Shown here one piece after another: positions 12,854 through 28,696 of a DNA stretch of 62,167 bases. The first letter of the stretch is position 1. Every line of letters begins with the position of its first letter. The DNA comes from a virus: positions 1 to 62,167 of IMG/VR virus record IMGVR_UViG_3300037485_002384. The stretch is one strand, 5' to 3'. The notes under the pieces were generated by a model. That model did no database searches. It saw nothing but the letters and a program-made list of their open reading frames with translations, and had not been told where the DNA came from. The position numbers were made by a program, and so were the translations under genes.

Positions 12854-14449
12854 ATGGCTAAAAATAAAAACAAACTCTCTATAAACGATATACCAGCCAT
12901 TGACGAACAAATAGCTAAAGCTAATATTGTTAAAAGTTTGGCTATCCAATCTGCACTAACTTCAAATAGTGTAGATGATATATATAAGGCACAAAAATAT
13001 CTTCAAACTATTCAACCTAAAGAGAAAGACGTAAAACCTCAATCTCTTTTAATAGACCCTCAATCTCATGGTGCTGATGGTTATAAGGAAAAGTCATTTA
13101 GACTTTCTTATGATATATTAAGAGCAATGGCTCGATCACCAATCTTTAAAGCTATCATCAGAACTAGAGTTAGTCAGGTGATGAATTTCATAGAACCTCA
13201 AAAAGACAAATACTCCCCAGGTTTTGTTATAAAGCCAAAGGATGCGAAAGTAACTGATAGTGGTATTAAACTAAGTAAAGAACAAGAGACTCGAGTTAAG
13301 GAATTAACTGAGTTTGTTTTAAATTGTGGTGATAATACAAATGAATGGCATGGTGATAACTTTGCATCATTTACAAGAAAATTTATAACTGATTCTTTAG
13401 AATTAGATCAGGCTACAGCTGAGGTTGTAAGAAATAGAGGTGGTGAGGTTTGTGAGTTTATTGCCACAGATGCAGCTACATATAGAATTGCAGACACTCA
13501 CAATGATGAGAAAAATGGTTCTACAAGATTACAAAAGGGTGCTAAGAATGGTTATTTACCATATTATGTGCAGATATATCAATCAAGGATCATGGCTGAG
13601 TTCTATCCATGGGAATTGATATTTGGAATAAGAAACCCATCAACAAGCATATTAGCTAATGGTTACGGTAGAAGTGAATTAGAAGATTTAATTGAAAATG
13701 TAACAGCAATGTTAAATGCTGATCAATACAATGCTAATTTCTTTAAGGTAGGATCTAATCCAAAAGGTATTTTAAGAGTCTCTGGTAATATTAACCAAGG
13801 TCGTATAGATGAGTTTAAAAATCATTGGCAAGCTCAAATGTCAGGTGTTAGGAATGCACACAAATTACCTATCATAGAAGGGGATAAAATGGACTTTATC
13901 AATACTCAAACATCCAATAAGGATATGGAGTATGGTAAATATCAAGAATTCTTAATTAAAATAGGATGTGCTCATTATCTAATGGATCCATCTGAAATTG
14001 GATTTCCAATGCAAGGTGCTTCGGGTAATGCCGGTCTTGGAGGTGATGGTGGTACAAAAGAAAAATTAGAGTACTCAAAAGACAAAGGGTTAAAACCTCT
14101 ATTAACATCATATCAAAATTGGATTAACAAATATATTATAGATCAAAAAGACTCTAATTACATATTAACATTTGAAGGTATTGATGTAGAGTCTCCAGAG
14201 AAAGAATTAGAAAATGATGTTAAGGCGGTATCAAACTGGGCAACTGTAAATGAAATAAGAAGAAAGAGAGGGATGAAGGATGTAGAAGGTGGTGATATTA
14301 TTTTAAATCCAATATTTCTACAAGCTAAAATGGCAGCTATGCAAGGTGATCAACAATCAAATGATTATGTAGATCAAGAACAAGGTGATGAGCCAAACCC
14401 ATTTCAAAAATCATTAGAAACTGATATTCAAAGTATATTTGCTAATTAA
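12854..14449 (+). CDS. Portal protein
   Basis: The portal forms the dodecameric ring through which DNA enters and leaves the head. Recognisable portions are DILRAMARSPIFKAIIRTRV (residues about 86-105), ELIFGIRNPSTSILANGYGRSEL with the following ENVTAMLNADQYNANFF stem region, and LIKIGCAHYLMDPSEIGFP. These match the general pattern of phage portals of the SPP1/HK97-like type. The length of 531 residues is normal, and its position between terminase and head genes is classical. Confidence 0.88.
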   Translation: MAKNKNKLSINDIPAIDEQIAKANIVKSLAIQSALTSNSVDDIYKAQKYLQTIQPKEKDVKPQSLLIDPQSHGADGYKEKSFRLSYDILRAMARSPIFKAIIRTRVSQVMNFIEPQKDKYSPGFVIKPKDAKVTDSGIKLSKEQETRVKELTEFVLNCGDNTNEWHGDNFASFTRKFITDSLELDQATAEVVRNRGGEVCEFIATDAATYRIADTHNDEKNGSTRLQKGAKNGYLPYYVQIYQSRIMAEFYPWELIFGIRNPSTSILANGYGRSELEDLIENVTAMLNADQYNANFFKVGSNPKGILRVSGNINQGRIDEFKNHWQAQMSGVRNAHKLPIIEGDKMDFINTQTSNKDMEYGKYQEFLIKIGCAHYLMDPSEIGFPMQGASGNAGLGGDGGTKEKLEYSKDKGLKPLLTSYQNWINKYIIDQKDSNYILTFEGIDVESPEKELENDVKAVSNWATVNEIRRKRGMKDVEGGDIILNPIFLQAKMAAMQGDQQSNDYVDQEQGDEPNPFQKSLETDIQSIFAN

Positions 14450-14473: not shown

Positions 14474-15688
14474 ATGTCACATTTAGAAGAGAAAAATTTC
14501 GCGAATAGAGAAGATTACATTCAATGTCAAAAAGACTTGATTCAAAAAGGCTTATATGGTGGTTTGCCATGTGAAGATGATATTATAAGAAAAGGTGGTG
14601 AAGGCTCAAAAGGCGGAAAGATTATAGGTCACACAAAAACAGGGAAACCTATCTATGACTCAGCTTCGCATTCAGCTCATAAAAACTTCACCGTTGATGA
14701 ACATAGAGAGGCTGCAGGTAAACATCTTGATAAGAAAGATTCTTCTACTAAAGAAAGTGATCGTGATAGTCACGAGTTTCAGGCAAAAGAACACGAAGCT
14801 GCCGCTAAAGAAAAAAAATCTAAAGGTGAAGTTGGAAAAGACACTATGAAAAACTCTCCAGCAACTTCTAAAGAAGATGAAACTTGGAATAAATTCAAAG
14901 ATAACACTCGCAAGCATTTTGAAGGTGGTGATAAGAAATCTACAAAACATAAAGTTGGAGATAGTGTTATCGATAAGGAAGGGAATAGAGGCAAAGTAAC
15001 TCATTCTAGCGACGATGAGATAAGTGTTGATTACGATAAGTCTTCGAAAGAAGGTGTAGATTCAGCTTCTTACAAACATCATGAAGTAAACAAAGTAGAA
15101 AAAGCTGAGGGTGACAACTTCGATGGCACTTTCGACAAGGCTATGACTGCTAAAGCTGGAGAAGGTGTTACTCAAAAAGAATCGGTAGAACATGATCCAA
15201 AGGATATGCAAAACCCTAAAGCTTCTGATTTAAGAAAAGCTTATGAGGTACTTGGATTAGGAGATTTGATTGAGAAAGCAGAAGGTTCTAGGGGTGGAAA
15301 AGTTGTCGGCCATACGAAGAGTGGAAAAGCTATTTATGAAAATCTTAAAGGACAACATAAATTATATAATAACTTCACAGCTAAAGATCACTTTGATGCA
15401 GCGGATTTGCACGATAAATTAGGTTCTGGTGGAATCGATAAGACAAGGACTGATTTTGTTGCAAGTAAAATAGGTAACACTCATGCCGCAGCTGCGAACT
15501 TGATGGATGATTCAGAAATGCCTATCGAAGAATCCCCTATTAAGATTAATGATGACGGGAGCTATTTCATAAAACATAATGGAACTACATATAAAATGAA
15601 ATCTGGAGAATCAAAAAAGGATTTTATTAAGCGTGCACAAATTGCTATAAAAAAAGATCATAATGAAGATATTAAAATAACCGGTTAA
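14474..15688 (+). CDS. Modular head-associated protein with two GHTKSGK modules
   Basis: The protein of 404 residues is hydrophilic and low complexity. It contains two copies of a ~36-residue module (about residues 41-77 and 270-306) with the core GGKxxGHTKxGKxIY and a trailing NFT..(D/E)H, each preceded by Lys/Gly residues. Between them lies a short SH3-like stretch (KVGDSVIDKEGNRGKVTHSSDDEISVDY, residues about 160-187). The element LGLGDLIEK precedes the second module and recurs in the protein at 26912. Modules of this type are common in Bacteroidota phage head genes. A structural or scaffold-linked role is likely; no catalytic motif is seen. Confidence 0.6.
   Translation: MSHLEEKNFANREDYIQCQKDLIQKGLYGGLPCEDDIIRKGGEGSKGGKIIGHTKTGKPIYDSASHSAHKNFTVDEHREAAGKHLDKKDSSTKESDRDSHEFQAKEHEAAAKEKKSKGEVGKDTMKNSPATSKEDETWNKFKDNTRKHFEGGDKKSTKHKVGDSVIDKEGNRGKVTHSSDDEISVDYDKSSKEGVDSASYKHHEVNKVEKAEGDNFDGTFDKAMTAKAGEGVTQKESVEHDPKDMQNPKASDLRKAYEVLGLGDLIEKAEGSRGGKVVGHTKSGKAIYENLKGQHKLYNNFTAKDHFDAADLHDKLGSGGIDKTRTDFVASKIGNTHAAAANLMDDSEMPIEESPIKINDDGSYFIKHNGTTYKMKSGESKKDFIKRAQIAIKKDHNEDIKITG
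14594..14703 (+). repeat. GHTKSGK module copy 1
   Basis: Encodes GGEGSKGGKIIGHTKTGK followed by PIYDSASHSAHKNFTVDEH. It is closely related to copy 3 in the gene at 26912 (both continue PIYDSA.H.AHKNF). Confidence 0.75.
15281..15391 (+). repeat. GHTKSGK module copy 2
   Basis: Encodes EGSRGGKVVGHTKSGKAIY and a diverged continuation ending NNFTAKDH. It is preceded by the LGLGDLIEKA element that also occurs in the gene at 26912. Confidence 0.7.
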
Positions 15689-15705: not shown

Positions 15706-16023
15706 ATGATAGATTTACGTTTCACAGGTCATATGTCAGGAGATTACATTGACATTCGTTTCAGAACAGATATGATGAATATCGATGATGCTAATTTCAA
15801 TATTACTCAAATTCAAGAAGGTTTGGATTTCAGTTCAAATGATAAACAAAGCCCGGTGTATTTAAAACACTTCTCTGTTGATTTCCAAGAGAAAAACACT
15901 TCACTAGCAGCATGTAAACAATTTGCTATTGATAACGGTTTAAATTTAAGAGCTTATTCTGTTGATGGAACAGTTACAAGTTTAGTTCATGATTTCTCTG
16001 ATTCTACATCTGCCAATAACTAA
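15706..16023 (+). CDS. Hypothetical virion-type protein, 105 aa
   Basis: Compact, beta-rich looking, with FRTDMMNIDDANFNIT and a KHFSVDFQEKN segment. No family is recognised. It follows the modular protein by 17 nt and is the last head-type gene before the endonuclease/glycan island. Confidence 0.55.
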   Translation: MIDLRFTGHMSGDYIDIRFRTDMMNIDDANFNITQIQEGLDFSSNDKQSPVYLKHFSVDFQEKNTSLAACKQFAIDNGLNLRAYSVDGTVTSLVHDFSDSTSANN

Positions 16024-16036
16024 TTAAAAGTAGAGT

Positions 16037-16885
16037 ATGAGTAATATTAAATCAGGTATCTATCAAATTATAAACCTTACAAACGGTAAGGTTTATATTG
16101 GTAGTACTTGTTCTTTGGGTGATAGAAAAAGTCGTCATTTAAAAGAGTTAAGAAATAATACTCATCATTCTATAATTCTTCAAAATGCTTGGAATAAGCA
16201 CGGCGAAGAAAATTTCAAATTCGAAATCCTTGAATTAGTCGAAGATAAATCTCAACTCATCAACCGCGAACAATTTTATTTTGATACACTAATTCCAACC
16301 TATAATATTTGTAAGATTGCAGGTAGTTGTTTGGGTATAAAACATAGTCCTGAGAGAATTGCAAAAAACATTTTATCAAGAAAAAATATAGTTCGGAAGA
16401 TAAGATCGAGAGAGGAGGTTGAGACTTCTAATTTAAAGTTAAAAGCCACTCGACAAAACGACCCTTCGATTTTATTACGGAATAAACAATCTAAATACAA
16501 ATCCGTAATTCAGCTTGATCAACAGGGAAATTTTATAGCGAAACACCCTTCATTAAAACAAGCTGCTGAAATCACCAACATCCATATTAGTCATATCAAT
16601 TGTGCTTGTTTAAATAAATATAAAATAGCTGGGGGTTTTATATGGTTACACGAAGCTAATTATTCAAAACAATATGTTGCTAAATTAATAGAACAACTGA
16701 ATTTACCTACTAGCTGTTGTAAGGCTGTTTTACAATTCGATTTGAAAGGTTCTTTGATTAAGAAATTCCCTTCTATTAAGGCAGCTTCAGTTGAATTGAA
16801 AATATCAGCTTCTCGTATTATAAATATCTGTAAGAACAAACCAAAATCTCGTAGCTCAAAAGGATCTAAATTTCAATATCAATGA
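16037..16885 (+). CDS. GIY-YIG homing endonuclease with NUMOD repeats
   Basis: The N-terminus has the GIY-YIG signature (SGIYQIINLTNGKVYIGST, residues about 6-24), the catalytic-Arg helix region (RKSRHLKEL) and a Glu-containing REQFYFD motif (about 76-83). A NUMOD3-like GIKHSPERI follows, then two NUMOD1-like repeats (SVIQLDQQGNFIAKHPSLKQAA and AVLQFDLKGSLIKKFPSIKAAS). These bind DNA, so this is a free-standing homing endonuclease. A close paralogue lies at 25862, and the two bracket the glycan genes. Its last 4 nt overlap the next gene. Confidence 0.88.
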   Translation: MSNIKSGIYQIINLTNGKVYIGSTCSLGDRKSRHLKELRNNTHHSIILQNAWNKHGEENFKFEILELVEDKSQLINREQFYFDTLIPTYNICKIAGSCLGIKHSPERIAKNILSRKNIVRKIRSREEVETSNLKLKATRQNDPSILLRNKQSKYKSVIQLDQQGNFIAKHPSLKQAAEITNIHISHINCACLNKYKIAGGFIWLHEANYSKQYVAKLIEQLNLPTSCCKAVLQFDLKGSLIKKFPSIKAASVELKISASRIINICKNKPKSRSSKGSKFQYQ

Positions 16886-17421
16886 TTCACTACCTTACAC
16901 CATATAGTTTAGAAAAAGATTTGGGGAAAGCTTATAATCAAGCCGCATCTTTAATAACTAATCAAGAAGACTGGCTATGTCTCTTGGACGCTGATACAGC
17001 ATTTTTATCGCCAGATTTCGGACATCAAATTCAAGAAATTATTAGTTTAAATCCCGACGTTGGATTACTTACTTGTGTAACAAATAGGATAGGGAATTTA
17101 GATCAAGCTTATAATGGAATTATTTCTGAAGAAACAGATATACTTAAACATCGCCAAATAGCTTTAGATCTTGCTAAAAGCAAAAGACACCGAGTTAAGA
17201 AGATTCCTAATCCTATATCAGGTCACTTGATGTTGCTTAAAAAAGCAACTTGGGATATTATTGGGGGAGCTCCTGAAGGGAGAGGGATTCTTTCAATCGA
17301 CAACACTATTAGTAATAGAGTCGTTCGAAATGGATTTGATATTTTATTAATGGAAGGTGTTTATTTATTTCACTTTTATAGATTAGATACAGGACGTCAT
17401 AATAAATCACATCTTAAATGA
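16882..17421 (+). CDS. Glycosyltransferase, GT-A/GT2-like
   Basis: The opening HYLTPYSLEKDLGKAYNQAASL and the DxD-containing motif CLLDADTAFLSPDFG (residues about 33-47) match a family of small GT-A glycosyltransferases in phages and Bacteroidota. The Asp pair binds the sugar-nucleotide metal ion. At 179 residues it is short but the motif order is complete. It starts inside the end of the GIY-YIG gene and overlaps the next gene (ATGA). Confidence 0.75.
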   Translation: MIHYLTPYSLEKDLGKAYNQAASLITNQEDWLCLLDADTAFLSPDFGHQIQEIISLNPDVGLLTCVTNRIGNLDQAYNGIISEETDILKHRQIALDLAKSKRHRVKKIPNPISGHLMLLKKATWDIIGGAPEGRGILSIDNTISNRVVRNGFDILLMEGVYLFHFYRLDTGRHNKSHLK

Positions 17422-18053
17422 GGAAAGTAATTTATACAGCCTTAATGGGTTCATATGATTTACTAAAAGACCCTTTAGTGATAACTCCAGGTTGGGAGTA
17501 TATCTGTTATTCTAATAATAAAAATCTAAGATCTAACGTCTGGAAAATTATTTATATGAATTTGCAAGATGTAAAACAATTAAGAAAGTTAAAAATAATA
17601 ACACCCTTTGAATATGACACTTGTATATGGATAGATGCTTCTATAGAGGTGAGATGTAATCTTGATGACTTCATAAGAGATAACCATCAAAGTTATTTTA
17701 CATTAATGAAACACCCTCACAGGGGTTGTGTATATATGGAAGCAGAAGCTTGTGTTGTAAGAAGAAAGGATAACGAACAAGTTATAAGAGATCAAATGAC
17801 TTATTATAGAAGCTTAAGATATCCCTCTAATGACGGTATGGTTGCAACAGGATTACTTATTAGAAATAATTGTAAGCAAGTTAAGGATTTCTGTGAAAGA
17901 TGGTGGTCTGAAGTTGAGAGATTTTCAAGACGAGATCAATTAAGTTTTAATTTTACAGCGCATCAATTTCCTATAAAATATACTCTAATATCTTTCAATG
18001 TATTAGAAAAAGAATTTTACTTATATTTACATCATAACTCAAAAATATTGTAA
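17418..18053 (+). CDS. DUF616-type glycosyltransferase
   Basis: The sequence begins KVIYTALMGSYDLLKDP and contains CIWIDASIEVR and KHPHRGCVYMEAEAC, signatures I associate with the DUF616 (TOD1/MUCI70-like) glycosyltransferase-like family. WIDAS may take the place of the DxD metal site. It is the second sugar-transfer gene of the island, coupled by short overlaps to both neighbours. Confidence 0.75.
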   Translation: MRKVIYTALMGSYDLLKDPLVITPGWEYICYSNNKNLRSNVWKIIYMNLQDVKQLRKLKIITPFEYDTCIWIDASIEVRCNLDDFIRDNHQSYFTLMKHPHRGCVYMEAEACVVRRKDNEQVIRDQMTYYRSLRYPSNDGMVATGLLIRNNCKQVKDFCERWWSEVERFSRRDQLSFNFTAHQFPIKYTLISFNVLEKEFYLYLHHNSKIL

Positions 18054-18628
18054 TGACAAGAATAGATATAATCAACCATTTTATAAAAAAATACAATTAT
18101 AAATCTTATTTAGAAGTTGGTGTTCAAAACGGCATATCATTTAAAGGTGTCAATTTACCGATTGAAAATAAAGTAGGTGTAGACCCTGATTTAAATAGTA
18201 GAGCAACTATCTATTTAACTTCAGATGAATTCTTTAAAGAAAATAAGAAGACGTTCGATATAATCTTTATCGATGGAATGCATGAAGCTGATTTCGTATA
18301 TAGAGATATAATCAATTCTCTTAAAATATTAAACGAAGGTGGTGTAATATTATGTCATGATTGTTTGCCTTTTGACGAAGATAGTCAAAAAGTACCTAGA
18401 ATGACTAAGAGGTGGACAGGTGATTGTTGGAAAGCTTTTGTTAAATTAAGATATGAAAGAAGGGATCTTAAAATGAAAGTAGTCGATACTGATTGTGGTG
18501 TTGGAATCATACACAGAGGCGAACAAGTAACATTGACTAGATTAGTATATAAATATGGCGAATTTGAATTAGATAAAACTAATTTACTGAACCTTATCTC
18601 AATAGAAGATTTTAAGCAACAATATTAG
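18053..18628 (+). CDS. SAM-dependent methyltransferase
   Basis: Residues 17-32 read YKSYLEVGVQNGISFK, the glycine-bearing motif I of class I methyltransferases, followed by KVGVDPD (motif II) and TFDIIFIDGMHEADFVYRDI (motif IV, Asp-Gly-Xaa-His). This is the Methyltransf_24-like layout. The likely substrate is a sugar or small glycan intermediate, given the neighbours; this is inferred from context only. Confidence 0.8.
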   Translation: MTRIDIINHFIKKYNYKSYLEVGVQNGISFKGVNLPIENKVGVDPDLNSRATIYLTSDEFFKENKKTFDIIFIDGMHEADFVYRDIINSLKILNEGGVILCHDCLPFDEDSQKVPRMTKRWTGDCWKAFVKLRYERRDLKMKVVDTDCGVGIIHRGEQVTLTRLVYKYGEFELDKTNLLNLISIEDFKQQY

Positions 18629-18632
18629 TAAA

Positions 18633-19412
18633 ATGAATAAAGCTCTATCAACTGAAGAACTATTGAGTGTCTTAAAAAAACACTTACAAAACAAAACTCC
18701 ATTATCATTAGTAAGATATGGAGATGGTGAGGCTATCACTTTGAATGGATTCAAAGATACAGAGTCTTACAAAATGGTTCTTAAAAGACAGCTAGGTTTT
18801 TGTCCGACAATAGAGGAGGCTGAGGAGATTCGTTTAAACCTAATCGAAGCTTATAAAGGATGTGATATATTAGGATTATCATTAACAGATAAACAGAAGG
18901 GAAATGAAAAAGACTATTGGGCCAGGTCAAAAGAAATTTTAAAAGAAAACACAGAGGTGGATATTTTAGATAAAAAAGATCTTGTATCAATTGACTGCCA
19001 CTCTCATTTCTTAGATAAAAATTATTACAAAGAATTAATGACAGATTTAAAAGTTGTTAATTACATTTCATGCAGGAACCTTGATGAGGAAATAAAAAAA
19101 ACATTTAACGTAAAACAAGTAAACTCATATATAATAGCACCTGAAGCTAAATTCACATCAGGATATACCGGAACAAAGCACTATCCTGATCAATTTATCC
19201 ATATTAAAAAATGGATGGAAAGAGCAGTACCATGTGAGGGTAATTTATGTTTAGTTGGAGCCGGCTTTATAGGTAAGGTTTATAACAACTGGTTTAGAGA
19301 TTTAGGTGGTGTTAGTATGGATATAGGATCTATAATGGATACATGGGCAGGTAAGGCTACTAGAGGTCAGGGGAGAGGATTAGATGCAATAGATGAAACT
19401 CATAAACTATAA
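18633..19412 (+). CDS. GT-D-fold glycosyltransferase
   Basis: The motif LSLVRYGDGEAI (residues about 19-30) is the hallmark of the GT-D (DUF1792-like) glycosyltransferases, whose Asp-Gly-Glu binds the sugar nucleotide. The C-terminal segment CLVGAGFIGKVYNNWFRDLGG and SMDIGSIMDTWAGKA is also characteristic. At 259 residues it is full length. It probably transfers a hexose onto a growing glycan. Confidence 0.8.
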   Translation: MNKALSTEELLSVLKKHLQNKTPLSLVRYGDGEAITLNGFKDTESYKMVLKRQLGFCPTIEEAEEIRLNLIEAYKGCDILGLSLTDKQKGNEKDYWARSKEILKENTEVDILDKKDLVSIDCHSHFLDKNYYKELMTDLKVVNYISCRNLDEEIKKTFNVKQVNSYIIAPEAKFTSGYTGTKHYPDQFIHIKKWMERAVPCEGNLCLVGAGFIGKVYNNWFRDLGGVSMDIGSIMDTWAGKATRGQGRGLDAIDETHKL

Positions 19413-19414
19413 TC

Positions 19415-19825
19415 ATGGAATATATTTACTCAAAAGTGGAATTTAAATTACTTCTTCATATCATAATGAGAACAGAAGATATGACTCCAGGTAGAAACGA
19501 ACTTGTACCTGAAGAAAATTTTATTCAATGTGCAGCATTAACAATGCCAATGGGTAGGACATTCAAACCACATAAACATATTTGGAAACAGAGAGATAGG
19601 CAGGTTATAGCTCAAGAATCATGGGTTGTACTAAAAGGTAAAGTAAAGTGTATTTTCTATGATCTAGATGACTCTATAATAGCAGAGGTTATACTTAATG
19701 AGGGTGATGCTTCATTTACATTACAAGGTGGTCATAACTATGAAATATTAGAAGATAACACTAAGGTTTTAGAATTTAAAACAGGTCCTTATGAAGGTCA
19801 GCATAATGATAAAAAATTTATTTAA
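19415..19825 (+). CDS. Cupin-fold protein (WbuC-like)
   Basis: A beta-barrel cupin pattern is visible: PHKHIWKQRDRQVIAQESWVVLKGKV (residues about 52-77) carries the His and Glu ligands, then GDASFTLQGGHNYEIL the second motif. The general pattern resembles the sugar-pathway cupin WbuC. A sugar-nucleotide isomerase or modification role is plausible; exact chemistry is unknown. Confidence 0.7.
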   Translation: MEYIYSKVEFKLLLHIIMRTEDMTPGRNELVPEENFIQCAALTMPMGRTFKPHKHIWKQRDRQVIAQESWVVLKGKVKCIFYDLDDSIIAEVILNEGDASFTLQGGHNYEILEDNTKVLEFKTGPYEGQHNDKKFI

Positions 19826-19832
19826 AATAATA

Positions 19833-19864
19833 TTTGTTTATTTAACATAAAAACTTTATTTTTA
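19833..19864 (+). promoter_or_regulatory. Promoter with inverted palindromic operator, leaderless
   Basis: TTTG (19833-19836), TTTATTTAACATAAA (19837-19851) and TATTTTTA (19857-19864), with a 20-nt spacer. The 15-mer is the exact reverse complement of the copies at 3667, 8798, 24175 and 52771, which shows that the motif is a true dyad. The ATG at 19869 starts 5 nt past the box. Confidence 0.7.
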
Positions 19865-19868
19865 CAAA

Positions 19869-20555
19869 ATGAATAGAGAATTAAAAATTATCTGCACAAC
19901 TTCAGATAAATACCACCATATACTACCAATATTTTGTTTTCTATTCAACAAATACTGGTCCCCAGGCCAAAAGGTTGAAATTGTAGGATACAAAGAGTCT
20001 GAACACAAATTACCACCAAATTTTACTTTTGTAAGTTTAGGTGAGCAAAAAGGTGATGCTAAAAATTTTACTAGAGATTTAAGAGTTCATTTTGCTAAAC
20101 AAGATCAATTCTTTATATGGGTTATGGAAGATACTTTCTTAACACAAAAAGTTGATTTTAACAAACTTCAATTATTAAATTCTCTAACAAATAGAGAAAA
20201 TATAGGTCGTATAAATTTATGTAGAGAGGTAACTAAACAAGATCACATAAAATATGATAACATACAAGGCGTACAAGTTTATGAAAATAATAAAATTTCA
20301 TTATATAGACTTAGCACTCAAATGTCGATATGGAATAGAGATTTTGCTTTAAAGTATATGCAGAATGATCTCACACCATGGGAATTTGAATGTCAATCAG
20401 ATCATGCTGTTGATGAATATAGGATACTTGGTCTTGATTATGATTCACCGGTGACAAAAAATGAGGGTGTGAGAAAAACAAATATTTATAATTATAACTT
20501 TGATAACCTACCATTAGAAATAATAGAGGAAATGAGAGCAAAAAAATTCTTTTAA
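19869..20555 (+). CDS. Putative glycosyltransferase
   Basis: The layout resembles phage GT-A enzymes: an N-terminal IICTTSDKYHHILPIFCFLFNKYW, then FFIWVMEDTFL (about 77-87) where ME-D may bind metal, and NLCREVTKQDH. It begins at the predicted transcription start of a palindromic promoter, so this second half of the glycan island can be switched independently. Family assignment is by general pattern, not by a decisive motif. Confidence 0.6.
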   Translation: MNRELKIICTTSDKYHHILPIFCFLFNKYWSPGQKVEIVGYKESEHKLPPNFTFVSLGEQKGDAKNFTRDLRVHFAKQDQFFIWVMEDTFLTQKVDFNKLQLLNSLTNRENIGRINLCREVTKQDHIKYDNIQGVQVYENNKISLYRLSTQMSIWNRDFALKYMQNDLTPWEFECQSDHAVDEYRILGLDYDSPVTKNEGVRKTNIYNYNFDNLPLEIIEEMRAKKFF

Positions 20556-20556
20556 T

Positions 20557-21105
20557 ATGATTAAAGTAAATTTAGGCTGTGGCCAAAGAAATTTTGGTAA
20601 AGAATGGATTCATATAGATGGTGGTAGCTTCGCACATCTTAGTAAAAAATATAAATCAGTTGAGTTATATGAATTCCCGGATGACTCTATTGATGTTTTA
20701 TATGCTAGTCACCTAATAGCATACTTTGATAAAGTAGAATTATCAGCACTATTAAAACAATGGAGACGTAAACTTAAAAAAGGCGGTGTGTTAAGATTAG
20801 CTACACCTGATTTTGAAGTGATGGTTGAATTATATAACGGTTTAAAGGTGGAATTACAAGATATTATAGGACCTCTGTATGGTAAAATGCAAATGGGTGA
20901 TGAATGGATTTACCACAAAACAACTTATGATCGTAAAAATCTAGATCAATTGTTATTTGATGCAGGTTTTAATAGGTCAATAAGTTATGATTGGAAACAT
21001 ACAGATCATTCACAATTCGATGATCACAGTCAGGCTTATTTGTGTCCAAAAGGAGATAAGGATAATGGAGTACTAATTAGTTTAAATATAGAAACAATAA
21101 AGTAG
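20557..21105 (+). CDS. SAM-dependent methyltransferase
   Basis: The start KVNLGCGQRNFGKEWIHID (residues 3-21) is the motif I and acidic loop of class I methyltransferases. FPDDSIDVLYASHLIAYFD and a LKKGGVLRLATPDFE motif follow, as in sugar/carbohydrate-associated Methyltransf_11-type enzymes. The length of 182 residues is compact but complete. Confidence 0.8.
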   Translation: MIKVNLGCGQRNFGKEWIHIDGGSFAHLSKKYKSVELYEFPDDSIDVLYASHLIAYFDKVELSALLKQWRRKLKKGGVLRLATPDFEVMVELYNGLKVELQDIIGPLYGKMQMGDEWIYHKTTYDRKNLDQLLFDAGFNRSISYDWKHTDHSQFDDHSQAYLCPKGDKDNGVLISLNIETIK

Positions 21106-21786
21106 ATGTCAGTAAAATCAAACGAATTAACAAAAATACAAATTGTCAGGTTATTAGGTGAAAAATCTCACTATCATATATTAGATATAGGTACTTATGA
21201 TGGTAAGGATGCTAGAGGTATATTAGACCTACTACCTTCAGCTGAAGCTCATTGTTTTGAAGCAGATCCTAGATCTCAAAAGTTATTTAGATCTATACAT
21301 CCAAATAGTGAGGTTATGAATTTATATTCAGTTGCAATTGGTAATGTAGATGATATGGTTACTTTCCATCAAAGTGATTCAGATACAAGGAGACATGAGC
21401 ATAATAAAAGTAGTTGGTCAGCCAGTAGTTCTTTAAAGGAACCTAAAGAACATTTAGAATTATTTCCAGAAGTTGAATTTAAAAATAGTATCAAAGTTAG
21501 ATGTTATAAGCTTGATACATGGTATAAGAACAACTTATTCCCATATACTATAGATTTTATATGGGCAGATGTTAATGGTGCTGAGAATGATGTTATATCA
21601 GGAGGTTTAAATACTTTAAATAAACACACAAGATTCTTATATATAGAATTTTCTAATAAAGAATTATATAAAGATTCAATCGATAAACAAGGTTTATTAG
21701 ATATGTTGCCGGATTTCAAAGTACTAGGAACATATAATTATCAAGGTAATTTTGGTAATGTTTTACTTAAAAATAAAAACCTGTGA
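21106..21786 (+). CDS. FkbM-family methyltransferase
   Basis: The sequence shows HILDIGTYDGKDARGI (motif I, residues about 24-39), HCFEADPRSQKLF (acidic loop), NLYSVAIGN and KLDTWYK, then FIWADVNGAENDVISG, which is the FkbM pattern. FkbM enzymes typically O-methylate sugars. It is the third methyltransferase in the island, so the glycan is probably multiply methylated. Confidence 0.85.
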   Translation: MSVKSNELTKIQIVRLLGEKSHYHILDIGTYDGKDARGILDLLPSAEAHCFEADPRSQKLFRSIHPNSEVMNLYSVAIGNVDDMVTFHQSDSDTRRHEHNKSSWSASSSLKEPKEHLELFPEVEFKNSIKVRCYKLDTWYKNNLFPYTIDFIWADVNGAENDVISGGLNTLNKHTRFLYIEFSNKELYKDSIDKQGLLDMLPDFKVLGTYNYQGNFGNVLLKNKNL

Positions 21787-22520
21787 TAATAGCTACATCT
21801 ATAACATCTGACTACTTAGAAAAAAGTCAACCTTTTTTTGATAGTGTAAACAAAAACTTTATAGGTAAGAAGATTTGTTTTTGTATAGGTTTTAAAGCTG
21901 AGTATGAAGGATGGGAAATGATCTATGTAGATATTGATACATTACAGTGTAAATGGCAACCAGAGAATAGGAAAAATTATTACTCTCTACAACATGGTGA
22001 ATTTACCAGGTTCTATAAGTTTGATGATAATGATCAGATAATGTTTGTAGATAGTGATATGATACTACAGAGAAAATTTGAATCATCAATATTATTAGTA
22101 AGTAAATTTATAGTTACAAATTCATCATTCCCACCTACTAAAATAGAGGACGTGTCTGTAAATTTGAATTGTAAATTATCTAAAGAAGATTTCATAAATA
22201 AACACCAATTAACAATAAATGATAATGAATTCTGTGCTGCTCTATTAATAGCTTCAGCTAAAGAATGGGATAAATTATTTAGAGAGGTGAGGTTAGTATA
22301 TAAGGATTTTTTAGAAGATTTTACTCATCATGCAGCTTGGCAACTGTTAATAAATATTGTTATAATAAAATGTCATAGACATGAAATATCATCACCTATG
22401 CTACAGAATGCTGAATGGTATTCAGGCACTGAAGCTAAAGTTATTGATGATGTATTAATGTGGAAAGATGAGGTTGTCTATTTTAATCATACAAAATTTA
22501 ATCGTACTTTTAAATATTAA
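21783..22520 (+). CDS. Glycosyltransferase (GT8-like)
   Basis: The start codon is GTG overlapping the preceding stop (GTGA). The protein has an N-terminal IIATSITSDYLEKSQPFFDSV and the metal-binding motif QIMFVDSDMILQR (residues about 86-98), as in GT8-type retaining enzymes. The C-terminal NHTKFNRTFKY is also common in this group. About 55 nt of gene-free sequence follow. Confidence 0.7.
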   Translation: MIIATSITSDYLEKSQPFFDSVNKNFIGKKICFCIGFKAEYEGWEMIYVDIDTLQCKWQPENRKNYYSLQHGEFTRFYKFDDNDQIMFVDSDMILQRKFESSILLVSKFIVTNSSFPPTKIEDVSVNLNCKLSKEDFINKHQLTINDNEFCAALLIASAKEWDKLFREVRLVYKDFLEDFTHHAAWQLLINIVIIKCHRHEISSPMLQNAEWYSGTEAKVIDDVLMWKDEVVYFNHTKFNRTFKY

Positions 22521-22574
22521 TTAGATATAGAAAACAAAGAAATCTATACCTATCAAAACAAACATATATAGAAA

Positions 22575-23180
22575 ATGAAAAATAAAACACCAGACTTTTC
22601 AGTGGTAGTTGAATTTGAAAAAAGAATAGCTCAATTCTTTGGAGCTAAGTATGCGGTTATGACTGATAGTTGTACTCATGCCATAGAACTATGTCTTAGA
22701 TATGCTTCAGCTGATGTTGTGAGATGTCCAAAACATACTTACTTATCTATCCCTATGTTAGCTGATAAATTAGGGATTAGATTAGAATGGAGAGATGAGG
22801 AGTGGCAAGATTATTATCGAGTATATGGAGGTATTTATGATGCAGCTGTATTGTGGAAAAAAGATAGCTATATCCCAGGTTCTCAAATGTGTATTAGTTT
22901 TCAATATCAAAAACATTTGAGTTTAGGAAGGGCTGGAGTTATATTATTAGATATTGAAAGAGATTATCAAAATCTAAAGAAAATGTCCTATGATGGCCGT
23001 TTGCCGAATATCCCCTGGCGAGATCAGGATATTGATAGAATAGGATTTCATTATTATGCCACGCCAGAAACAGCTTCATTAGGAATAGAGAAATTGCAAG
23101 ATGCTATTGATACAGTACCTAGGCAATGGGTATATACAGACTGGCCAGATTTAACACAAATGAAAATTTTTAAAAAATAA
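22575..23180 (+). CDS. Compact DegT/DnrJ-type aminotransferase
   Basis: The sequence has the family start FEKRIAQFFGAKYAVMTDSCTHAIELCL, then YDAAVLW with Asp89 in the position that contacts the PLP pyridine nitrogen, and SFQYQKHLSLGRAGVILLD with Lys113, the likely PLP Schiff-base lysine. The usual length is about 370 residues; this protein has 201, lacking most of the middle and the C-terminal domain. It is therefore either a minimal enzyme or a remnant. Since it precedes the Gmd gene by 1 nt, amination of a GDP-4-keto-6-deoxysugar is the obvious hypothesis. Confidence 0.7.
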   Translation: MKNKTPDFSVVVEFEKRIAQFFGAKYAVMTDSCTHAIELCLRYASADVVRCPKHTYLSIPMLADKLGIRLEWRDEEWQDYYRVYGGIYDAAVLWKKDSYIPGSQMCISFQYQKHLSLGRAGVILLDIERDYQNLKKMSYDGRLPNIPWRDQDIDRIGFHYYATPETASLGIEKLQDAIDTVPRQWVYTDWPDLTQMKIFKK

Positions 23181-23181
23181 T

Positions 23182-24147
23182 ATGAAAAAGAAAGCATTTA
23201 TAACAGGAATAACAGGTCAGGATGGTGCTACATTATCTGAACATTTATTATCATTAGGGTATGAGGTTCATGGTATTGTAAGAAGAAATTCAACAGCTGA
23301 ACATCAAGATAGTAAAATAGCTCATTTAGATGTAAAGACATATTATGGTGATATGTCAGATATTAGTATACTTGAAAAGTTATTAAAAGAAATAAAACCT
23401 GATGAGATATATAACCTTGCAGCTCAAAGTCACGTTAAGGTTTCTTGGGACACACCTGGGTTTACAATGAATACTAATGGTAATGGTGTTCTAAATATAT
23501 TAGAAGCATATAGAAACAATTGTCCCGGTGCAAAATTCTATCAGGCATCATCAAGTGAATGCTTTGGGTTGACAGTTGATCCAGATGGATATCAAAGAGA
23601 AACAACTATAATGAATCCTACAAGTGTATATGGGTGCTCTAAAGTACTTGGATATAACTTAGTAAGACATTATAGAAGGGCATATGGTTTGCATGCTTGT
23701 AATGGGATATTATTTAACCATACAGGTACAAGAAGATCAAGTGCATTTGTAGAAGCTAAGATTGTAAAAACAGCTTGTATGATAAAGTTAGGCTTGACTG
23801 ATAAATTAGAACTAGGAAATCTTGACTCATTTAGAGATTTTGGAGCTTCTAAGGACTATGTGAGGGCTATGCATATGATCATTAATCATGATACACCGGA
23901 TGACTTTGTAGTATCTACCGGAACAACACATTCTGTTAGAGAAATATGTCATTATGTATTTGGAGTTTTAAATATGGATTATAAAGATTATGTAGTTGTT
24001 AATGAAAAATACATAAGACCTGAAGAACTTCCATATTTAAAAGGTGATTGTAGTAAGATAAAAGAGGTTTTAGGATGGAAACCTGACTACACTTTTAGTG
24101 CATTATTTGAAGAAATGATTAATCACTGGATGAATGAATTAAAATAA
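23182..24147 (+). CDS. gmd: GDP-mannose 4,6-dehydratase
   Basis: The protein converts GDP-D-mannose to GDP-4-keto-6-deoxy-D-mannose, an intermediate for GDP-fucose, GDP-rhamnose and GDP-perosamine. It is an extended short-chain dehydrogenase with the NADP-binding loop TGITGQDG (residues 8-15), followed by the RRNS loop, NLAAQSHV, the catalytic SSSE (Glu126) and YGCSK (Tyr150/Lys154). The length of 321 residues is near normal (about 340-370). The gene ends the main glycan operon. Confidence 0.9.
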   Translation: MKKKAFITGITGQDGATLSEHLLSLGYEVHGIVRRNSTAEHQDSKIAHLDVKTYYGDMSDISILEKLLKEIKPDEIYNLAAQSHVKVSWDTPGFTMNTNGNGVLNILEAYRNNCPGAKFYQASSSECFGLTVDPDGYQRETTIMNPTSVYGCSKVLGYNLVRHYRRAYGLHACNGILFNHTGTRRSSAFVEAKIVKTACMIKLGLTDKLELGNLDSFRDFGASKDYVRAMHMIINHDTPDDFVVSTGTTHSVREICHYVFGVLNMDYKDYVVVNEKYIRPEELPYLKGDCSKIKEVLGWKPDYTFSALFEEMINHWMNELK

Positions 24148-24174
24148 ATCTATTGATAATCAGTAAGTTACAAA

Positions 24175-24222
24175 TTTATGTTAAATAAAGGGTTGTTATG
24201 TGAAATAATACTCTTATCTTTA
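24175..24222 (+). promoter_or_regulatory. Promoter with tandem palindromic operators
   Basis: One exact copy TTTATGTTAAATAAA (24175-24189) lies upstream of TTG (24193-24195). A weaker second copy, GTTATGTGAAATAAT (24195-24209), occupies the spacer before TATCTTTA (24215-24222). The two are exactly 20 nt apart, i.e. about two helical turns, so a regulator could bind cooperatively. This is the only tandem arrangement in the window. Confidence 0.65.
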
Positions 24223-24250
24223 TGATAAGAAATAATTAAAACTCTCGATA

Positions 24251-24448
24251 ATGGAAAACTTAGAAAAACAAATCAAAGTAATACAAGAAAATGTAATTAC
24301 TTTAAAAGATGGTAGAAAGTGGGAGATTCGTAAAAAATCACCAACCCATCTTTTAATAAGACACGTTGGTATGAAAAGTAGTATGAGAATTAAAGTTGCA
24401 GAATTTAACGAATTAGTAGAAGAAAAAGATCAAATAATCCACTTTTAA
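24251..24448 (+). CDS. Hypothetical protein, 65 aa
   Basis: A small basic protein with an ITLKDGRKWEIRKKSPTHLLIRH stretch suggestive of a tiny beta-barrel nucleic-acid-binding fold. No family is recognised. It opens the unit transcribed from the tandem-operator promoter. Confidence 0.5.
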   Translation: MENLEKQIKVIQENVITLKDGRKWEIRKKSPTHLLIRHVGMKSSMRIKVAEFNELVEEKDQIIHF

Positions 24449-24474
24449 AAAAATAACTTTAAAAAATAAAAATC

Positions 24475-24942
24475 ATGAAAAATATAATCTTAATAATCAG
24501 TCTAATTGCAATATCATTTGCATGTAAAAAGAAATCTCCAGAGCCTGAAGTAGTATATCAGGATAAAATAGTAAATACAGTAACACATGATACAGTATGG
24601 GGTCCAAGTGGTACTTATACAATTACGATCCATGATACAGTATATGTGAATGTAACACCAACCCCTTTAAATGGTATATGGTATTGCTATAAAATGGAGT
24701 CAGGGTCAACATCCACACTTCATAATGATTGGATATTTACTTTTGGTAATACAATTTTTACTCAAAATCTAAGTACTTCAGGAACTTATAATTATCCTAT
24801 AACCTATTACTCTGGATCTGTAGATATATTATTTTCAGGATCAACACCAACAACTTATTATATCACCTCTATGAATAATGGAACAGAATATAAGTTGACA
24901 AAAACAAACGGTACAGTTCAATCATGGTATTTAAGGAAATAG
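24475..24942 (+). CDS. Lipoprotein, 155 aa
   Basis: A type II signal peptide is evident: MKNIILIISLIAISFAC with a lipobox-like SFAC and Cys17 as the acylated residue, followed by lysines. The mature part is Ser/Thr/Tyr-rich and beta-sandwich-like, starting NGIWYCYKMESGST. It probably sits in the host envelope. Phage lipoproteins often block superinfection or receptors, but nothing here identifies the target. It lies downstream of the tandem-operator promoter. Confidence 0.75.
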   Translation: MKNIILIISLIAISFACKKKSPEPEVVYQDKIVNTVTHDTVWGPSGTYTITIHDTVYVNVTPTPLNGIWYCYKMESGSTSTLHNDWIFTFGNTIFTQNLSTSGTYNYPITYYSGSVDILFSGSTPTTYYITSMNNGTEYKLTKTNGTVQSWYLRK

Positions 24943-24943
24943 A

Positions 24944-25081
24944 ATGAATAAAGAAGAAAAGAAAAAATACACTTTTATTAGTGAATTAACTTGGGGTTGT
25001 ATACCTATAGATTTTGAATGGGCTATAAGTACCGGTATTTATAAAGAAATGGAAACTAAATTATTCCCTATTCATGAATAA
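24944..25081 (+). CDS. Small hypothetical protein, 45 aa
   Basis: An open frame begins with ATG 1 nt after the lipoprotein stop and ends overlapping the next start (ATGAATAA). The peptide has a basic N-terminus, then a Trp-containing centre (TWGCIPIDFEWAIS). Tight placement between two genes supports it being real; function unknown. Confidence 0.5.
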   Translation: MNKEEKKKYTFISELTWGCIPIDFEWAISTGIYKEMETKLFPIHE

Positions 25082-25811
25082 AATTGATATTGTTTACAAA
25101 CTAGGTATTGGATCAAAATGGCAAGATAGAGAGCTAAGATATTCACTTAGATCTCTATCTTATTTTAAAGACCTTGGTAAAGTATATTTGATTGGCCATA
25201 AACCAACCTGGGTTAAGAATATAATTCATATACCATTAGAGGACGTATTTAAATCTAATAAAGACTGTAACTTAATTAATAAAATCATATTAGCTTCTCA
25301 TGATCCAAATATATCACAGCAGTTTTTAAACTTCTCAGATGATCAGGTGTTATTGAAAGAATGTTCTGTAGAGGATTTTATTACACCATATTATGATAAT
25401 TCGTTAATTCAGTTTCTACCTAACCAACAACTCAACCGCTGGAAAACAAGACTTAAAAACACGATACGTGCTCTTCAAGATAAAGGGTTTTCAACTAATT
25501 GCTATGAGTCACATATTCCTATTTTAATAGATAAAAACAGCTATATATCATCTGTATTTCAATATAATTATCCTGAAGGTCAAGGTATGTGTGGAAATAC
25601 ATTATATATCAATACAACAGGTAAGAGAGGAGATCCATTACCTAAAGATTATGCTGTAAGATTTGAGGGTAATTGTCCTGAATTATCCGTATTAGAATCC
25701 ATGTGTGAAGGTAAATTACATTTTAATTATTCAGAAGCTACAACTTGTGACGTTCTTTTTGATTTTCTTGAGAAAAACTTTCCTACGAAATCTATCTATG
25801 AGAATAATTAA
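25074..25811 (+). CDS. Stealth-like glycosyl-phosphotransferase candidate
   Basis: Residues 1-95 resemble the conserved Stealth family start: IDIVYKL, DRELRYSLRSLSYFK, KVYLIGHKPTWVKNI and FLNFSDDQVLL, in which an Asp-Asp pair closes the catalytic region. A later SHIPILIDK matches the third conserved region. Stealth enzymes move hexose-phosphates in capsule synthesis. At 245 residues it is shorter than the usual proteins, so the assignment is a fold-level guess. Confidence 0.55.
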   Translation: MNKIDIVYKLGIGSKWQDRELRYSLRSLSYFKDLGKVYLIGHKPTWVKNIIHIPLEDVFKSNKDCNLINKIILASHDPNISQQFLNFSDDQVLLKECSVEDFITPYYDNSLIQFLPNQQLNRWKTRLKNTIRALQDKGFSTNCYESHIPILIDKNSYISSVFQYNYPEGQGMCGNTLYINTTGKRGDPLPKDYAVRFEGNCPELSVLESMCEGKLHFNYSEATTCDVLFDFLEKNFPTKSIYENN

Positions 25812-25826
25812 TTGAATTTATTTTCG

Positions 25827-25834
25827 TATTTTTA
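25827..25834 (+). promoter_or_regulatory. Promoter box with leader ORF
   Basis: TATTTTTA with no good TTTG at the normal distance. An ATG 5 nt past the box opens an 8-codon leader ORF (25839-25865) that stops overlapping the ATG of the GIY-YIG gene. Confidence 0.4.
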
Positions 25835-25838
25835 TAAA

Positions 25839-25865
25839 ATGTTTAAAAGTGTTTTTGATAAATGA
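25839..25865 (+). CDS. Leader peptide, 8 aa
   Basis: MFKSVFDK begins at the predicted transcription start. Its TGA overlaps the ATG of the homing endonuclease (ATGA at 25862), so translation of the second gene is probably coupled to it. It mirrors the layout at 10883. Confidence 0.4.
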   Translation: MFKSVFDK

Positions 25866-26647
25866 AGTATAAATTTCTAGACAATATAACTAAGCAACCA
25901 GGTATTTATAAAATACTTAATATAAAGACAGGTGTTTTTTATATAGGAAGTGCTGTGAATTTAAATCGTCGAGGTATATCTCATTTTAGACAATTAAATC
26001 AAAAAAAACACCATAATCAAAAACTTCAAAATGTTTTTGATAAATACGGTATTGAAAACTTCAAATTCGAAATACTTGAACTAGTCGAAGACAATTCTCA
26101 GCTTATAGAAAGAGAACAATTTTATTTAGATTTACTAAAACCATCTTATAATATCTGTAAAATAGCAGGAAGTACATTGGGAAATAAAGGTTCAGATATT
26201 TTTAAAGCAAAAAGAAAACTTCTTCAAAGCAAACCAGTTGTTCAATTAGATATGCAAGGCAATTTTATTGCAGAGTTTGAATCCGCTAAAGTTGCAAGTA
26301 TTAAGCTTTTTAATAATCAATATAGTGCAATAAGTTCAACTTGTCTTGGCAAATTTTATCACGTCAAAGGATTTCGTTGGCAATATAAATCAGATTATGA
26401 TAGAGGTATTGAACTACCTCTCAAAAGTGATAAAAAAAGTACTAGTAGATTTATTCCTGTAATACAGTTAACTCTACAAGGTGAATTTATACGAGAATTT
26501 AATTCTATCAAAGAAGCTTCTTTTGTTACAAAAACAAAACCAATTGATATATGTTACGTTTGTAAGAATAAAAAATCTCACAATACGGCAGGAGGTTTCA
26601 AGTGGATGTATAAATCGGATTATAGTAAATTAAAACTGGCAGCCTGA
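25862..26647 (+). CDS. GIY-YIG homing endonuclease, paralogue of the 16037 gene
   Basis: It has the GIY-YIG signature QPGIYKILNIKTGVFYIGSA (residues about 12-31), the RRGISHFRQL helix and IEREQFYLD. Two NUMOD1-like repeats follow (VVQLDMQGNFIAEFESAKVAS and VIQLTLQGEFIREFNSIKEAS). The stretch NFKFEILELVED and TYNICKIAGS-type residues are nearly the same as in the protein at 16037, so the two are recent paralogues. It has 261 residues and overlaps the next start by one base. Confidence 0.88.
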   Translation: MKYKFLDNITKQPGIYKILNIKTGVFYIGSAVNLNRRGISHFRQLNQKKHHNQKLQNVFDKYGIENFKFEILELVEDNSQLIEREQFYLDLLKPSYNICKIAGSTLGNKGSDIFKAKRKLLQSKPVVQLDMQGNFIAEFESAKVASIKLFNNQYSAISSTCLGKFYHVKGFRWQYKSDYDRGIELPLKSDKKSTSRFIPVIQLTLQGEFIREFNSIKEASFVTKTKPIDICYVCKNKKSHNTAGGFKWMYKSDYSKLKLAA

Positions 26648-26910
26648 TGTTAGATTTTGAAGTTATTAATATAAATAACTATATTTATAAACAAAACAGT
26701 GAAGGTGTTTGGATATATAAAGCTAGTAATCAAATACCGTTTAAAAAAAATGGTGCGTTAAGGAAAGAATATAAAGACATGCCGAGATTTTCTGTAATAA
26801 AAGAATACGAGTATCAAGAACAAAAAGATTTCAATACACTATTAGAACAATCAGTAAAAGAAATATCACACAAGTTATTATCGTTTAGTAATACCATAAA
26901 TCATATTTAA
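26647..26910 (+). CDS. Hypothetical protein, 87 aa
   Basis: No recognised family; begins with a hydrophobic-polar alternation and has a charged C-terminal helix (DFNTLLEQSVKEISHKLLSF). It overlaps the endonuclease stop by one base. It might be a companion of the endonuclease or the first resumed head gene. Confidence 0.5.
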   Translation: MLDFEVININNYIYKQNSEGVWIYKASNQIPFKKNGALRKEYKDMPRFSVIKEYEYQEQKDFNTLLEQSVKEISHKLLSFSNTINHI

Positions 26911-26911
26911 A

Positions 26912-27748
26912 ATGGAAAATAACATTTTCGAATTCGGTAAGAATTCAATCATTAATAAAGCAGCAGGAATTTTAAATTGCTATAAAGAAGGTGATGCTTT
27001 AGTTAAAGCCTATAGTGATAGTATCATAAAAGCTGAGGGTGCACGCGGGGGTAAGGTAATTGGACATACTAAATCTGGAAAACCAATTTATGACTCAGCT
27101 GGTCACGAAGCTCATAAAAACTTCTCTATAGCTGAGCATGATGATGCAATCGAAGCTCATCAAAAAGTGAGGGATGATTATCATAAAAACAATCAATCGA
27201 CAGATAAAGACAAAGAAGATAACGACAAAGCTTTCGAACAGCAAAAAGGACACATCGGAGCTAAAAACCACATGATGAAAGATATGACTCCAGCTGAAGC
27301 AAGAGCTGCTGCAAAAAAATCTGAAGAGGAGAATAAACCTAATGATGAATCAGGAGATAAGAAACACCACGGTAAAATGTCTGATCATTACAATAGACAA
27401 TCTTTATCCGCATCTACACCTGAAGATAAAAAAAGATTAAGTGATTTAGCTGATAAACATGAGAAATTATCCAAATCAGAAGGTGAGGAAACATCTGATC
27501 TTCAAAAAGCATACGAGACTCTAGGCTTAGGAGATTTGATTCAAAAAGGAGGTTCTGGTAGTGGAAGACACCCATCATCAGGTTATTCTTTAAAAGCAGG
27601 AGATACTTTAACTCATAAGAAAACAGGCAAACAACATTCAATCAAGTCTGTTGGTGAAGAGGGTGATGTGACAACAAGTGAGGATAATAAAATCTCATAC
27701 TTTGAAGTACACAATGATTATAAACACAAACCTTTGAAAAAAGACTAA
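26912..27748 (+). CDS. Modular head-associated protein with one GHTKSGK module
   Basis: A hydrophilic protein of 278 residues with one module (about residues 42-76) very similar to copy 1 of the gene at 14474, followed by charged helices. The LGLGDLIQK element recurs at about residue 207. The C-terminus (GSGSGRHPSSGYSLKAGDTLTH) looks like a small SH3-like domain. It lies just before the minor head protein gene. The sharing of modules across the intervening island suggests these two genes were once adjacent or derive from duplication. Confidence 0.6.
   Translation: MENNIFEFGKNSIINKAAGILNCYKEGDALVKAYSDSIIKAEGARGGKVIGHTKSGKPIYDSAGHEAHKNFSIAEHDDAIEAHQKVRDDYHKNNQSTDKDKEDNDKAFEQQKGHIGAKNHMMKDMTPAEARAAAKKSEEENKPNDESGDKKHHGKMSDHYNRQSLSASTPEDKKRLSDLADKHEKLSKSEGEETSDLQKAYETLGLGDLIQKGGSGSGRHPSSGYSLKAGDTLTHKKTGKQHSIKSVGEEGDVTTSEDNKISYFEVHNDYKHKPLKKD
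27035..27139 (+). repeat. GHTKSGK module copy 3
   Basis: Encodes EGARGGKVIGHTKSGKPIY and DSAGHEAHKNFSIAEH, most similar to copy 1 at 14594. Confidence 0.75.
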
Positions 27749-28696
27749 TTGTTCACACCAAAACAAATATCAGAATTACTTGAAATCCTTGATAAACAAA
27801 ATTTAATCTTTATCTCATCTAAGTTAGGACTTAATTACCTGACTGAAGATGAGATATCAAGATTACAAAAATGGGGTATTAGCCCATATCATTTGTATAA
27901 GGATAGCCAGGATATAGCTAAAATGTCGTTTCATTTTGGTCTAATTTCTGATGCAATAGGTAGAAAGGAATCCAAAGACATCACATTAGACGATCTTAAA
28001 GAATACTTCGAGAAAGGTGAACATATACCATTAACCAAAGTAGAAAGAAATACAATTGATTCAATCAAAAAACAATACCTTGGAGATATAAGAGCTAATA
28101 ACGGTAAAATCTTTCAAGATCTAAACAATATTATAGCTAAAGGTGAAAAGAACAATAGAGCAGCCTATGAGAAGGTTATAAGAGATGAGATTGAGAAGGG
28201 TGTTTTAATGAAAAAAACTTCAAGTGAAATAGCTAGAGATTTAGCAAGAAAAACAGGAGATTGGAATCGTAATTTTAAAAGAATAGTAGAATTCATTAGC
28301 CATCAAGCTTGGGATGAAGGTCGTGCAGCTTCAATAGAGAATAAATATGGAGAAGATGCTTTAGTTGCAAAAAATGTATACTTAGGAGCTTGTAAGTATT
28401 GTATTAGTGCTTATTTAACATCCGGTATTGGTAGTCAACCTAAAATATTTAAATTAAGTGTTTTAAAAGCAAATGGTTCCAATATTGGAAGGAAAGCTGT
28501 AGATTATAAACCTGTTATAGGGAACCATCATCCAGCATGTAGATGTACTTTATTTAAAGTAGATAACCAATTCTCATGGGATGAGAAAAATCAAGGGTTT
28601 AATATACCAAAAATTAATCCACCTAAACCTCAAGAATTAAAACCGAACAGAAAGTTGATTAGAATTTCAATAAAAGGGAAAGAATATTCAGTTTAA
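27749..28696 (+). CDS. Minor head protein (SPP1 gp7 / Mu F-like)
   Basis: The start is TTG immediately after the preceding stop; the next in-frame Met lies near residue 59, so TTG is preferred. The C-terminal region has the motif HHPACRCTLF, a hallmark of the phage head morphogenesis family, preceded by ACKYC and a helical DEIEKGVLMKKTSSEIARDL region. It helps assemble the head around the portal. Its usual place is directly after the portal gene; here it is about 13 kb away, across the glycan island. Confidence 0.8.
   Translation: MFTPKQISELLEILDKQNLIFISSKLGLNYLTEDEISRLQKWGISPYHLYKDSQDIAKMSFHFGLISDAIGRKESKDITLDDLKEYFEKGEHIPLTKVERNTIDSIKKQYLGDIRANNGKIFQDLNNIIAKGEKNNRAAYEKVIRDEIEKGVLMKKTSSEIARDLARKTGDWNRNFKRIVEFISHQAWDEGRAASIENKYGEDALVAKNVYLGACKYCISAYLTSGIGSQPKIFKLSVLKANGSNIGRKAVDYKPVIGNHHPACRCTLFKVDNQFSWDEKNQGFNIPKINPPKPQELKPNRKLIRISIKGKEYSV

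Follow-up and report, generated by a model that had tools for sequence, protein, structure and literature searches.

A glycan gene cassette in a variable slot of a phage head module, bordered by homing endonucleases that are probably separate arrivals

Where a block of sugar genes is found between two homing endonuclease genes in the middle of a phage structural module, the question arises as to whether the endonucleases brought it there. The case considered here is the window, i.e. the whole 62,167-base IMG/VR viral record IMGVR_UViG_3300037485_002384, in which a glycan island flanked by two GIY-YIG/NUMOD1 genes lies between the portal and minor head genes. An earlier reading of these letters (the sequence-only reading) took the island to be mobile cargo that had entered the head operon with the endonucleases, possibly with duplication of host-gene sequence at its ends. 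Its description of the anatomy agrees with our gene calls, family assignments and coordinates, including the related GHTKSGK modules just outside each end (Table 1); the separation that it put at about 10 kb is real but larger (11.2 kb from the first to the second modular gene, 13.3 kb from portal to minor head), and two genes were omitted from it, namely the small head-module gene 15706-16023 and the 87-amino-acid (87-aa) gene 26647-26910. As an interpretation it appears to be only partly supported, most of it being overturned by comparison with relatives. We consider it probable instead that this interval is a variable slot holding a glycan cassette that recombines among phages, that the endonucleases are separate invaders, and that the cassette probably serves to glycosylate the virion.

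A phage of Bacteroidota is the most likely source of the window (the host being presumed accordingly), because the structural genes show synteny with those of the Chryseobacterium phage MA9V-3, with identities of 51% for the portal, 43% for the minor head protein and 60% for the structural-region gene at 36086. Single-sequence scans detected hardly any relatives, yielding one locus for the portal, none for the minor head gene and, for the GT-D-like gene, no match in viral contigs or phage records, so that alignments were required; when viral contigs were scanned with profiles, 50 loci were detected for the portal, 21 for the minor head gene, 80 for the endonucleases and 72 for the first glycosyltransferase of the island. 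The portal-to-minor-head gap was measured in 49 distinct records having both genes, duplicate records having been taken out by hand. Since the relatives are distant, many records are fragmentary and the scans were built on seed patterns, the absences given below hold for what was searched.

The shorter portal-to-minor-head arrangement that the sequence-only reading led one to look for in related phages does exist: in 47 of the 49 records the gap ranges from an overlap to 8.9 kb, and in most relatives the glycan genes are missing from this interval. The two longer gaps are those of the window (13.3 kb) and of one other record, G025 (loci L036/L078; 14.5 kb). For the nearest relative, the coordinates of two overlapping contigs, L009 and L058, would put the gap at about 11 kb. 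It is G025 that is most telling. Its island lies between portal and minor head, as in the window, in the order 15706 family (that of the small gene 15706-16023), Methyltransf_24, TOD1, GT-D, FkbM, epimerase/dehydratase, DegT, 19869 family, glycosyltransferase, Stealth, minor head; none of the other genes in the gap, among them additional methyltransferases, is an endonuclease, and a search of the entire 44.8-kb record found neither GIY-YIG nor HNH_3. The same island in the same place in a relative without the endonucleases, which had been named beforehand as the case that would tell against the sequence-only reading, is thus what G025 presents. In the closest relative, L009/L058, the island is in place with the left endonuclease only, and a short endonuclease-free spacer separates the Stealth and 87-aa genes where the window has its right endonuclease; in L054 and L059, where the island comes after the minor head gene, the junction matching that of the left endonuclease is empty, the glycosyltransferase directly following the 15706-family gene with a terminator-like hairpin between them. 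Because the island is found in place in relatives that lack one or both of the endonucleases, these have the look of independent passengers that came later, and not of its vehicle or its borders, and would neither define the island nor be needed for it. More broadly, GIY-YIG genes are missing from 16 of the 22 records that have such cassettes. Endonucleases are found at further island junctions in L054, L173/L174, L192 and G032, and at least five different junctions of such islands hold them.

The explanation put forward at the outset corresponds to a homing endonuclease gene island (HEG-island) with accessory cargo, in which cuts made by the two endonucleases, one at each edge, in island-free relatives would let co-conversion carry the sugar genes in. 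As described by Barth, Dunham and Seed in 2023, HEG-islands exceed 10 kb, are flanked on each side by homing endonucleases and are unstable in their endonuclease content from one relative to the next (PMC10448857). The window is similar to this extent: its region exceeds 10 kb, two endonucleases of one family bracket it (L058 having one on one side only), and the left junction is occupied in the window and in L058 by endonucleases without detectable nucleotide similarity and is empty in L054 and L059. However, the class is also characterised by essential or core cargo and by a nucleotide identity between distant phages that is raised far above that of their other regions (PMC10448857), and because the window shows neither we do not place its island there: the cargo consists of accessory glycan genes, not essential or core ones, and the nucleotide identity of the island to its relatives (roughly 64-75%) is no higher than that of the portal and minor head genes. 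The bracketed region as a whole has no long nucleotide match in phage records. With same-place islands that have no endonuclease (G025) or only one (L058) also to be accommodated, this model seems to us improbable. A variant in which the island is a nascent HEG-island, the endonucleases now bracketing an accessory glycan cassette and being able jointly to convert island-free relatives, is likewise unlikely; were it true, Bacteroidota phages would be acquiring types of virion or surface glycan from one another through homing.

As regards the endonucleases themselves, GIY, YIG, R30, E78 and N90 are invariant in their alignment, and the catalytic domain matches I-TevI structures with an E-value of 5e-23. 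In common with the T4 seg genes and other free-standing GIY-YIG endonucleases (PMC2988022), they have an intact I-TevI-related GIY-YIG domain, are intergenic and are patchy at junctions, with endonuclease-free alleles in relatives at both of the window junctions; they differ in having a NUMOD1-type DNA-binding part and in belonging to a presumed Bacteroidota myophage. At its stop codon the left gene overlaps the one after it by 4 nt. As free-standing enzymes of I-TevI/Seg type, the two probably entered separately, one at the junction of the 15706-family and glycosyltransferase genes on the left and one at the Stealth/87-aa junction on the right, and homing into endonuclease-free alleles would copy each of them, together with a stretch of adjoining DNA, into phages that have none. 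Aligned in full the two are clearly related, as the sequence-only reading supposed (40% amino acid identity, E 5e-56). Its “near-identical stretches”, in contrast, hold for the 12-mer NFKFEILELVED, found in both and in no other of 94 distinct related endonucleases, and not beyond that short peptide, the best DNA match being 73% over 208 nt. Among the same 94 the left and right enzymes are reciprocal best matches. Of the two window enzymes, it is the right one that the left endonuclease of L009/L058 matches with the higher score (147 bits, against 110 bits for the left one), a pattern consistent with repeated invasion or with exchange; in a tree of 69 endonucleases, the relative order of these three (window-left, window-right and L009/L058) is not settled (support 91/38). 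At L058 523-1150, the 5' coding part of the endonuclease contains a strong hairpin with a T-rich stretch after it, like the terminators that have been reported within T4 mobE and segF.

It might be supposed, too, that the flanking modules and endonucleases are target-site or gene duplications generated when the island entered, since both make up homologous pairs whose members face the same way, at distances of 9.8 and 12.4 kb, and the endonucleases are each other's best match. Their synonymous sites, however, are saturated. The endonuclease pair has the same codon at 58 of 109 identical residues (53%, where codon usage predicts 54%) and the module pair at 15 of 29 (52%, where it predicts 55%), the modules themselves being 33% identical in the main alignment. 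Codon identity being at chance, both pairs are old, neither is a recent or a target-site duplication, and recent duplication of the endonucleases in particular is ruled out; at 71-75% nucleotide identity the flanking copies are unlike those of a composite mobile element with duplicated ends. Nor are the modules insertion footprints, because the island of L058 lies between module genes and has a single endonuclease, and because module-type genes are present in the portal-to-minor-head interval of island-free relatives. Duplication on entry is thus scarcely credible. Base composition was also considered as a sign of recent arrival and was ruled out (GC content of the island 0.306 against 0.308, GC skew 0.171 against 0.165); the low GC skew of the endonucleases is also found in other genes.

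The 15706 family immediately precedes the island in eight lineages, in two of which an endonuclease intervenes. In island-free phages it is found before or after the minor head gene, and sometimes on both sides, which may be why the island occurs on either side of that gene (it is downstream in L054, L059, L173, L176 and G037). The idea that the gene is specific to islands was discarded once a sensitive profile had found the family in island-free relatives as well. The fold of the 15706 protein is predicted with confidence, apart from a disordered C-terminal tail rich in Ser and Asp; a fold search gave no PDB match, and one viral match (template modelling score, TM, 0.63) of unclear meaning. 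As a small head-module protein encoded beside the island in eight lineages, it could be a candidate glycosylation target.

We would accordingly describe the interval beside the minor head gene as a hyperplastic slot, in which a cassette for nucleotide-sugar synthesis, glycosyl transfer and methylation adjoins the 15706-family gene, on a side of the minor head gene that varies by lineage, and has probably been spread and reshuffled by recombination between phages. A region of this sort, carrying carbon and photosynthesis genes, lies between structural genes g15 and g18 in cyanomyoviruses (PMC2984593). The likeness is in the variable cargo between conserved structural genes (here with gaps from an overlap to 14.5 kb across the 49 records); the differences are in the position, beside portal and minor head rather than within g15-g18, and in the glycan cargo. 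In MA9V-3 the same slot (PV245944.1 97075-101479) is filled not with glycan genes but with genes for membrane proteins, for a modular protein of ATPase-like type and for one of 229 aa that resembles a cell-wall hydrolase.

The cassette itself recurs. The order glycosyltransferase, TOD1, GT-D, cupin, 19869 family, Methyltransf_11, FkbM, DegT, GMD (GDP-mannose 4,6-dehydratase) is found, rearranged, in phages L171, L187, L189, L191 and L192. The isolated Cellulophaga phage phi12:1 has a Methyltransf_24 gene and a TOD1-glycosyltransferase fusion two small genes past its minor capsid gene; phi12:1 and phi18:1 are alike in having such genes after portal and minor capsid, but these are siphophages of 39 kb, and their version is short and has its glycosyltransferase fused. 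The island genes of the window are all co-directional, with one another and with the structural genes, and most of them overlap or nearly touch, and it is because of this tight packing that late glycosylation of a virion protein seems the likeliest function, and probably the true one. With the same anatomy, the cassette could alternatively modify the host envelope, for instance to block superinfection. This appears a good deal less probable, though it is a possibility to be taken seriously: a sub-cassette of cupin, Methyltransf_11, DegT and GMD, sometimes without Methyltransf_11, is found in Prochlorococcus single-cell genomes and an Altibacter metagenome-assembled genome (contigs that might themselves be of phage origin), the lipopolysaccharide-type clusters of cyanophage P-SSM2 are thought to change the host surface (PMC2984593), and the island includes a predicted lipoprotein. 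Against it stand the packing among structural genes, which suggests late expression, the similar genes among the head genes of unrelated Cellulophaga siphophages, and the hallmark glycosyltransferase, which a pattern scan did not find in 84,980 bacterial and archaeal genomes and which is found in phages.

There are thus three points that count against the variable slot with separately arriving endonucleases and virion glycosylation: the cassette could act on the host envelope; a shared family and reciprocal best match at both island edges is a notable coincidence if the arrivals were unrelated; and fragmentary records leave the absences incomplete.

Some further observations may be recorded with the features in Table 1. 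The sub-cassette of cupin, Methyltransf_11 (not always present), compact DegT and GMD, recorded at L243, L244, L245 and L246, is common to phages of this kind and to contigs binned as Prochlorococcus and Altibacter; its DegT is only about 200 aa long and retains the presumed pyridoxal phosphate (PLP) lysine motif. The island lipoprotein could be a phage-encoded surface lipoprotein with a role in superinfection exclusion. Just downstream of the head module, window 30637-32094 encodes a Laminin_G_3 (concanavalin-like) protein that might be a fibre or might bind glycans. The number of sigma-70 promoter-like sites in the region is what chance would give.

Table 1 Genes of the head module, the glycan island and the two endonucleases in the window.
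Feature	Position	Strand	Evidence and remarks
Portal, left conserved neighbour of slot	12854-14449	+	Pfam PF04860 Phage_portal 8e-23; PHROG portal 3e-51
Modular gene, two GHTKSGK/GHTKTGK modules	14474-15688	+	
Small head-module gene (15706 family)	15706-16023	+	Adjoins island start in eight lineages; also in island-free relatives
Left free-standing GIY-YIG/NUMOD1 homing endonuclease	16037-16885	+	GIY-YIG 8e-12, NUMOD1 3e-12
Short GT2-like glycosyltransferase, cassette hallmark	16882-17421	+	72 viral loci; none found in bacterial genomes
TOD1/MUCI70-type glycosyltransferase	17418-18053	+	PF04765 4e-14
Methyltransf_24 methyltransferase	18053-18628	+	PF13578 2e-10
GT-D-like glycosyltransferase	18633-19412	+	PF22882 6e-12
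WbuC-like cupin	19415-19825	+	TIGR04366 5e-10, just under its cut-off
Unknown cassette protein (19869 family)	19869-20555	+	Kept beside cupin gene in several phages
Methyltransferase (Methyltransf_11)	20557-21105	+	PF08241 4e-5
FkbM methyltransferase	21106-21786	+	PF05050 3e-14
Cassette protein without family match	21783-22520	+	
Compact DegT-type aminotransferase	22575-23180	+	PF01041 3e-11; SFQYQKHLSLG motif, presumed PLP lysine retained (alignment)
GDP-mannose 4,6-dehydratase (GMD)	23182-24147	+	PF16363 5e-105
Predicted lipoprotein	24475-24942	+	N-terminus MKNIILIISLIAISFACKKK; no family match
Stealth_CR2-like protein, last island gene	25074-25811	+	PF11380 3e-6, under its cut-off; kept in relatives
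Right free-standing GIY-YIG/NUMOD1 homing endonuclease	25862-26647	+	GIY-YIG 6e-12, NUMOD1 1e-7
87-aa head-module gene	26647-26910	+	Homologue in MA9V-3 and many relatives
Modular gene, one GHTKSGK module	26912-27748	+	
Minor head gene, right conserved neighbour of slot	27749-28696	+	43% identity and synteny with MA9V-3; weak PHROG head-morphogenesis matches, E 0.008

Bracketing by homing endonucleases is, then, insufficient for inferring a mobile island, and it is comparison of relatives that tells cargo from passengers. What is documented here is a recurring, reshuffled phage glycan cassette beside the head genes of Bacteroidota myophages and siphophages, and since these include isolated Cellulophaga phages, virion glycosylation could be tested directly in the latter.

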